From: Mesoterricola silvestris
Lineage (GTDB): Bacteria; Acidobacteriota; Holophagae; Holophagales; Holophagaceae
Direction: 5' to 3'
Assembly: GCF_030295405.1 (NCBI RefSeq)
Contig: NZ_AP027080.1
Span: forward strand, 310,001 to 374,000
DNA: 64,000 nucleotides
Shown here in pieces: positions 11,223 through 57,918 of this stretch. A program made the position numbers and the translations under genes. Position 1 is the first letter of the stretch; each line of letters starts with the position of its first letter. Under the pieces are notes generated by a model that had not been told where the DNA came from, did not search any database, and saw only the letters and a list, made by a program, of their open reading frames with translations.

Positions 11223-12128
11223 TCAGCCGATGCGGATCATTTCCTTGAAGGCCTCGACGCGGTTGGCGTAGTCCCCGTCCTGCAGGGCCTGCACCCGCTC
11301 CGTGCCGAAATCCTGCACGGCGAAGCTGGCCATGACCGTCCCGGCCAGGGCGGCGCGCTTCATGGTGGCCAGGTCCAGGGTCCCGGCCGCGGCGAGGTAG
11401 CCCAGGAATCCGCCGGCGAAGGTGTCCCCGGCGCCGGTGGGGTCCTTCACCTCTTCCAGGGGGAAGGCGGGGGCCGCGAAAAATCCTTCGGGCGTGAAGA
11501 GCAGCATCCCGTACTCCCCGCGCTTGACCACGAGGATGCGGGGGCCCAGGTCCCGGATCTTCCCGTAGACCTTCAGGAGGTTGCGCTCCCCGGTGAGGGA
11601 GCGGGCCTCGGCCTCGTTCACCAGGAGGATATCGATCTCCTTGAGCACCTCGAGGAGGGCGGGCCGCGCCCCGTCGATCCAGAAATTCATGGTGTCCAGG
11701 GCGATCCAGGCGGGGCGGGTGGCCATCTGCCGGACCACGTCCAGCTGGAGGGTGGGGTCGATGTTGCCCAGGAAGAGGTAGGGGGCGGTGCGGAAGGCCG
11801 CGGGCAGGTCCGGCTTGAAGCCCGCGAAGACGTTCAGGTGGGTCTCGAGGGTCCGGGCCTCGTTGAGGTCGGTGCCGTACTGGCCCTTCCAGTGGAAGCT
11901 CATGCCGGGGGTGCGCACCAGGCCCCCGAGGTCGATGGGGCGGCCCTCGAAGACCCGGTACTCCGCCGGGCCGAAATCCTCGCCCACGATGGCCACCACC
12001 TGCACCGGGTGGAACCGGCTCGCGCTCAGGGAGAAATGGCTGGCGGACCCGCCCAGGATGTTGTCCCGGCGGCCCGAAGGGGTTTCGAGGTCATCGAAGG
12101 CGACGCTGCCGACGGCGAGGAGGCTCAT
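11223..12128 (-). CDS. PfkB-family kinase, probable adenosine kinase
   Basis: Ribokinase/PfkB-fold kinase of 301 aa. Visible motifs: GGSASHFSLSASRF (residues 26-39, substrate lid and GG motif), NEAEA (171-175) and DPTGAGDTFAGGF (229-241) with the catalytic Asp235 and anion hole. ATG at 12128 follows GGAG at 7 bases; an in-frame ATG further upstream (12164) lies inside the leader hairpin and is disfavoured. The sequence alone does not fix the substrate. The SAH riboswitch in its leader points to adenosine, the toxic product of SAH hydrolysis; removing it as AMP pulls the SAM cycle forward. Other PfkB sugars remain possible. Confidence 0.82.
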   Translation of the reverse strand: MSLLAVGSVAFDDLETPSGRRDNILGGSASHFSLSASRFHPVQVVAIVGEDFGPAEYRVFEGRPIDLGGLVRTPGMSFHWKGQYGTDLNEARTLETHLNVFAGFKPDLPAAFRTAPYLFLGNIDPTLQLDVVRQMATRPAWIALDTMNFWIDGARPALLEVLKEIDILLVNEAEARSLTGERNLLKVYGKIRDLGPRILVVKRGEYGMLLFTPEGFFAAPAFPLEEVKDPTGAGDTFAGGFLGYLAAAGTLDLATMKRAALAGTVMASFAVQDFGTERVQALQDGDYANRVEAFKEMIRIG

Positions 12129-12163
12129 GGGGTGCTCCGGACGTTTGGGGATGGCGATGGACA

Positions 12164-12195
12164 CTCACCCGGCGCCCTTTCGGGGCCCAGGTGAG
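12164..12195 (-). promoter_or_regulatory. Competing hairpin, likely riboswitch expression platform
   Basis: On the minus strand CTCACC (12195-12190) can pair with GGTGAG (12169-12164), with an inner GCCC/GGGC pair. The CTCACC arm shares three bases with the 3' pseudoknot strand of the SAH aptamer (ACGCTC, 12198-12193), so hairpin and aptamer cannot both form. This is the arrangement expected of an expression platform. No U-tract follows, so the mode (termination or translation) is open. Confidence 0.55.
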
Positions 12196-12269
12196 CGTCG
12201 TTGGACAGAGCGGAGGCCGCCGAGCCTAGGCCGTCCTGGGGGGGACGGCTCGCAACGCTCCTCGGTGAC
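12189..12269 (-). promoter_or_regulatory. S-adenosylhomocysteine (SAH) riboswitch aptamer
   Basis: Read on the minus strand the leader contains CCGAGGAGCGTTGCGA, then a 7-bp hairpin (GCCGTCC/GGACGGC), then AGGCTCGG, then CAACGACGCTCA. These blocks, in this order, are the conserved core of the ahcY-motif (SAH) riboswitch. Pairings are visible: P1 CCGAG (12265-12261) with CTCGG (12224-12220); the 7-bp hairpin (12249-12243 with 12236-12230); pseudoknot GAGCGT (12260-12255) with ACGCTC (12198-12193). SAH riboswitches are known to turn genes on when SAH rises. Here it precedes a PfkB kinase, not ahcY. Confidence 0.9.
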
Positions 12270-12274
12270 ATTAG

Positions 12275-12304
12275 ATCCTACCTTGTGGATCCCTTGCCGG
12301 GCAA
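12275..12304 (-). promoter_or_regulatory. Putative promoter for the SAH riboswitch-kinase transcript
   Basis: On the minus strand TTGCCC (12304-12299), an 18-base spacer and TAGGAT (12280-12275) place a start near 12268, exactly at the 5' edge of the riboswitch P1 stem. The fit with the aptamer boundary raises confidence in both. Confidence 0.5.
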
Positions 12305-57744: not shown

Positions 57745-57820
57745 GGGCGATTAGCTCAGTCGGTAGAGCAGCTGCTTTACACGCAGCATGTCGGCGGTTC
57801 GAGTCCGTCATCGCCCACCA
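57745..57820 (+). tRNA. tRNA-Val (anticodon TAC)
   Basis: 76 nt including an encoded CCA. Acceptor GGGCGAT pairs with ATCGCCC; D arm GCTC/GAGC; anticodon stem GCTGC/GCAGC with loop TTTACAC (anticodon TAC, reads GUA and other Val codons); T arm GGCGG-TTCGAGT-CCGTC with one G-U. All conserved positions fit. Confidence 0.95.
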
Positions 57821-57841
57821 GAAATGGTGCTTTGAAAACCA

Positions 57842-57918
57842 GGGGTTGTAGCTCAGTCGGTTAGAGTGACGGCCTGTCACGCCGTAGGTCGCGGGTTCGA
57901 GCCCCGTCAGCCCCGCCA
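57842..57918 (+). tRNA. tRNA-Asp (anticodon GTC)
   Basis: 77 nt including an encoded CCA. Acceptor GGGGTTG pairs with CAGCCCC (one T-G); D loop AGTCGGTTAG; anticodon stem ACGGC/GCCGT with loop CTGTCAC (anticodon GTC); T arm GCGGG-TTCGAGC-CCCGT. Cotranscribed with tRNA-Val 21 bp upstream. Confidence 0.95.

Follow-up and report, generated by a model that had tools for sequence, protein, structure and literature searches.

The leader of a PfkB-family kinase gene in the 64-kb window, which is the whole stretch of DNA analysed here, very likely contains a genuine S-adenosylhomocysteine (SAH) riboswitch. As judged from the available sequences, its target would be a purine nucleoside kinase, most likely an adenosine kinase, in a loop that SAH turns on. 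In the family to which the window belongs, SAH riboswitches probably run a two-part regulon for SAH disposal, formed by ahcY and an adenosine-removing kinase. According to this broader reading, the kinase would have come under SAH control at least twice, riboswitch and kinase would have passed from one genus to another as a unit, next to a kinase copy that is not regulated, and the strand shared by the pseudoknot and an alternative hairpin would be the switch.

The aptamer in the kinase leader

The window was scanned with all 4227 Rfam families, and the SAH riboswitch model RF01057 matched the minus strand at 12269-12186 over its full length (cmscan, model positions 1-78 of 78), scoring 51.2 bits where the gathering score is 37. 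The E-value of this match was 1.6e-6 for the 64-kb window against all the families and 2.9e-8 for a genome-wide search with the single model. The aptamer is located in the 5' leader of the kinase gene, on the same strand and 57 nt before the kinase ATG. A sequence-only reading of this DNA had placed a SAH riboswitch in the interval 12128-12304 and had proposed the covariance model and a comparison of related leaders as checks. Both have now been run; the presence of the riboswitch is borne out, with a score above the threshold, whereas the extent had to be corrected, since the aptamer occupies less than the whole interval. Apart from this riboswitch, Rfam matched two tRNA genes in the window (57745-57915) and nothing else.

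The three conserved blocks described in that reading were found in the order claimed, and P1, the 7-bp inner hairpin and the 6-bp pseudoknot can all form. In P1, the 5' strand CACCGAG (12261-12267) pairs with the 3' strand CTCGGCG (12224-12218). The inner hairpin (12230-12249) is formed by GCCGTCC (12249-12243) and GGACGGC (12236-12230), and the pseudoknot by the 5' strand GAGCGT (12255-12260) and the 3' strand ACGCTC (12198-12193). These elements are kept with compensatory changes in 33 riboswitches from related genomes, where the three helices jointly show 91.2% of cells paired. For P1, 91.8% of cells are paired and four pairs have changed on both sides, and in the inner hairpin both-side changes were found among the relatives at six of the seven pairs. 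Pseudoknot cells are paired in every sequence (100%), with exchanges of G-C to A-U and of C-G to U-A. Twelve pairs changed on both sides, compared with a mean of 8.0 after shuffling, and none of 500 shuffles reached as high a number; when the partners were slid by 1 to 3 columns, pairing fell to 26-45%. Judged by its sequence, the RNA is a SAH riboswitch of the ordinary type, belonging to the known class and not to a new one, and the kinase that follows it is probably a gene of the SAM cycle.

One core base differs in the window, which has CCTAGGCTCGG where most relatives have CCCAGGCTCGG, at a nearly invariant position. The change is from C to U, just before AGGCUCGG, and the remaining core blocks are kept. 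CCTAGG replaces CCCAGG in the window and in one relative (G004).

Downstream of P1, the leader can form an alternative, anti-pseudoknot hairpin (12160-12199, minus strand). Its 5' arm is CGCTCACC, which includes bases of the pseudoknot's 3' strand, and its 3' arm is GGTGAGTG at 12169-12162. Both structures use one strand and are mutually exclusive. With a fold of -33.0 kcal/mol, this hairpin is the strongest among 36 leaders. Across 33 leaders the pairing of its arms is maintained with compensatory changes, and so it is in a separate alignment of 29 sequences. At column 96, C is replaced by U in four sequences, and the pseudoknot partner has changed from G to A in all four, while the hairpin partner is A in three of them and still G in one. 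The joint change of this column with both of its partners is what a bistable switch predicts.

The expression signals around the hairpin vary among the leaders. In one genome of the second genus (G093), the 3' arm of the hairpin (GAATGAG) runs into a GAGG Shine-Dalgarno sequence, and in three others (G065, G073 and G078) the start codon is located about 20 nt or less past the hairpin; in these four leaders, SAH binding should thus free the ribosome site. The arrangement in G093 suggests, at the sequence level, an SAH-ON switch. In the window, about 30 nt separate the end of the hairpin from the kinase ATG, and a Shine-Dalgarno sequence, GGAG (12135-12138), is placed 6 nt before the ATG; the kinase leaders of four other genomes (G004, G001, G018 and G077) have GGAG as well. 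A scan for intrinsic terminators found no U-tract terminator in the leader, and bound-like and free folds modelled for 10 leaders gave no consistent change in Shine-Dalgarno release or accessibility. The output step in the window may be translation or termination, both being possible, and the ON direction is here deduced from the riboswitch class and from the relatives.

A candidate -10 element, TAGGAT (12275-12280, minus strand), closely precedes the aptamer, with a weak -35 element, TTGCCC (12304-12299), at a spacing of 18. A TAnnnT element at this place was read by eye, without an estimate of chance occurrence, in all 11 kinase leaders, and suggests that the kinase leader has its own promoter. 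A strict scan for sigma-70 consensus promoters gave no match in the leader.

The kinase and its probable substrate

The kinase gene runs on the minus strand from the ATG at 12128 to a stop codon ending at 11223 and encodes 301 amino acids. An in-frame GTG (12162-12164), which would add 12 residues, was considered as the start and rejected, because G004 and G001 lack it and because GGAG precedes the ATG; this GTG falls within the 3' arm of the alternative hairpin. The protein matches PF00294 with 81.4 bits (cut-off 25.8) and carries the invariant catalytic motif DPTGAGD at residues 229-235. None of the NCBIfam equivalogs reached its cut-off for the kinase, the best scoring 52.3 of 400; the nucleoside kinase model NF041164 gave 24.6 of 450, far under its cut-off.

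Comparison with solved structures is more specific. The closest PDB sequence match is 3kd6 (E 1e-90, the next match having E 1e-12), deposited as 'Crystal Structure of Nucleoside Kinase from Chlorobium tepidum in Complex with AMP'. An AlphaFold2 model of the kinase (pLDDT 91) superposes on 3kd6 with a TM-score of 0.95 and 48% identity, making it the top structural match and the sole close solved structure. It is followed by a Methanocaldococcus nucleoside kinase, and classical adenosine kinases are weakly similar in sequence (E 6e-4 to 7e-4). The earlier proposal of a probable adenosine kinase gains support from the AMP-bound 3kd6, from operons in which the kinase gene accompanies ahcY, and from the mtnP, mtnA and purF neighbours found elsewhere. 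Adenosine is, on this sequence-based evidence, most likely the substrate.

The subfamily is found in 53 of 60 sampled genomes of the phylum and in many other phyla, including Acidobacteriota-, Bacteroidota-, Chlorobi-, Geobacter- and Nitrospirota-type genomes. In other classes and phyla, an mtnP-type gene (S-methyl-5'-thioadenosine phosphorylase) adjoins the kinase gene in 22 loci, in most cases immediately upstream and in the same orientation. Downstream of the kinase, an mtnA-like gene is present in nine Ignavibacteria-type loci, and a purF-like gene, named from its sequence alone, in nine flavobacterial loci. For mtnP and mtnA, the identity of representative genes was confirmed with NCBIfam. 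These neighbours show a broader tie of the subfamily to the salvage of SAM by-products and purines. A link between the kinase and ahcY in other phyla was also considered and rejected, ahcY being present within 10 kb in none of 80 loci. Genes for adenosine deaminases, for a purine nucleoside phosphorylase and for an MTA phosphorylase are present in the genome of the window as well, so that phosphorylation is one fate of adenosine among several.

Targets and history of the riboswitch in the family

The genome, a single contig of 4.99 Mb from the Holophagae branch of Acidobacteriota, contains two SAH riboswitches, and the second one precedes ahcY. In the family, 68 of 77 genomes carry at least one SAH riboswitch, 81 in total. 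The downstream gene was read for 66 of these, and it is ahcY in 55 cases and the kinase in 11, with no other gene represented; one further riboswitch extends past the end of its contig, and the remaining 14 were left unread. The pairing with a PfkB kinase proposed from the window is therefore recurrent: the riboswitch directly precedes the kinase in 11 of the 77 genomes, three from the genus of the window (G000, which is this genome, G001 and G004) and eight from a second genus (G018, G065, G067, G073, G076, G077, G078 and G093). By coordinates, the distance from aptamer to kinase in these 11 genomes is about 35-145 nt. In three additional genomes the order is riboswitch, ahcY and kinase, on one contig in G011 and G026 and pieced together from two contigs in G031. 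The listed genomes of the second genus each have two kinase copies, one with a SAH riboswitch in addition to one without. A search for weak SAH riboswitches before the other kinase copies found none in the loci covered. Three draft genomes (G089, G080 and G082) have two riboswitch-ahcY loci apiece, for which duplication or mixed bins are possible.

In a sample of 396 genomes of the phylum, two genomes outside the family gave SAH riboswitch matches, both below threshold; neither has ahcY or the kinase within the 10 kb read, and both were judged to be chance matches. Above-threshold SAH riboswitches thus occur, within the sampled phylum, only in the family of the window. This restriction suggests a single acquisition of the riboswitch, perhaps by horizontal transfer.

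In a maximum-likelihood tree of 57 kinases, the three riboswitch kinases from the genus of the window form one clade (100/99), and the eight from the second genus form another together with two kinases from the ahcY operons (100/99). From the well-supported branches, at least two changes must be assumed between kinases placed directly behind the riboswitch and kinases in the operon; this count of origins is a minimum, because the deeper branches are weak and the tree is partly unresolved. Compared with the ahcY riboswitches of G026 and G031, the kinase riboswitches in the second genus show 64-80% identity, and they are nearer to these than to the ahcY riboswitches of their own genus. These sequence relationships suggest that a riboswitch-ahcY-kinase operon may have lost ahcY and then moved.

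Proposed function and comparison with known systems

SAH is a toxic by-product of methylation, and its hydrolysis is a reversible reaction that is kept forward by removal of the products. In the preferred reading, SAH accumulating from methylation would bind the aptamer and stabilise P1 and the pseudoknot. The bound state would withdraw the CGCTCACC strand from the downstream hairpin and leave the leader open for expression, so that SAH would switch the kinase gene on, in line with the known class. AhcY, under its own SAH riboswitch, would convert SAH to homocysteine and adenosine, and the kinase would convert adenosine to AMP, drawing the reversible AhcY reaction toward hydrolysis and recovering the purine. 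Counting against this reading are the sub-threshold scores in curated families, the weak similarity to classical adenosine kinases, the absence of ahcY near the kinase in the 80 loci of other phyla, the deaminase route for adenosine, the altered core base, and the folding and terminator results for the leader.

Among the alternatives, the one with the largest share of the remaining probability, still unlikely, accepts the riboswitch and gives the kinase another main substrate, either a different nucleoside or a salvage product of methylthioadenosine or 5'-deoxyadenosine, with SAH reporting SAM use in general. The association with mtnP and the mtnA-like gene in the loci described above would fit such a role, and 3kd6 is labelled simply 'nucleoside kinase'. 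However, the product of MtnP is already methylthioribose-1-phosphate, and from what is known of the pathway the route through MtnA has no need of a kinase, while the ahcY operon and the AMP in 3kd6 indicate adenosine. It is very unlikely that the aptamer of the window has lost SAH binding, either through the core C-to-U change at its nearly invariant place or because an alternative hairpin of such stability, unmatched among the leaders compared, always wins; against this stand the RF01057 score, well over the threshold, and the relative G004, which has the same base change and keeps all helices.

It is also highly improbable that the riboswitch is a leftover from a riboswitch-ahcY-kinase operon after deletion of ahcY, with SAH control of the kinase alone serving no selected role. 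The greater similarity of the second genus's kinase riboswitches to the ahcY riboswitches of the operon genus, and the common clade of its kinases with two operon kinases, would fit such a deletion. The genus of the window, however, forms a separate clade, and aptamer, pseudoknot and alternative hairpin are intact and compensated in all lineages, which suggests continuing selection. The reading as a SAH-responsive adenosine kinase gene is preferred to all three. If it is true, an SAH-sensing RNA that controls adenosine removal would close the hydrolysis loop genetically, and the cell could clear both SAH and the adenosine freed on its breakdown. It would also provide a function, directly testable, for a widespread PfkB subfamily that has been left as generic carbohydrate kinase in curated libraries.

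The targets of SAH riboswitches given by Leyn 2014 include ahcY, metF, metH, COG1189, PF04020 and COG1385 (PMC4239095). Sun 2013 adds PF04993 and mentions beta/gamma-proteobacteria and Mycobacteriaceae among the carriers (PMC3766115). No kinase is among these listed targets (PMC4239095; PMC3766115), and the open-access literature searched yielded no relevant report pairing a SAH riboswitch with an adenosine kinase. The kinase gene is therefore probably a new target of a known class of riboswitch. With the RF01057 systems described before ahcY, metF and metH in beta- and gamma-proteobacteria, the leader of the window has in common the aptamer family, its helices, the pseudoknot and the signal pathway (PMC4239095; PMC3766115), and the sister riboswitch of this genome controls ahcY; it differs in having a nucleoside kinase as its target. 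The Chlorobium tepidum nucleoside kinase of 3kd6 shares 48% identity over the full length, the fold and the motifs of the same subfamily, but it is not known to have a SAH riboswitch. The motif found with the metK and ahcY operons of Chlorobi is a different one, SAM-Chlorobi (PMC2864571). The adenosine kinases of Mycobacterium tuberculosis and eukaryotes have the PfkB/ribokinase fold in common with the kinase of the window (TM about 0.7) and presumably the same reaction, whereas the M. tuberculosis enzyme has about 20% identity in the structural match and belongs to a separate branch of the superfamily. The SahR regulons of alpha- and delta-proteobacteria likewise place SAM-cycle genes under SAH-responsive control, but SahR is a protein regulator and not an RNA, and the core targets reported for it are ahcY, metH, metF and metK (PMC4239095).
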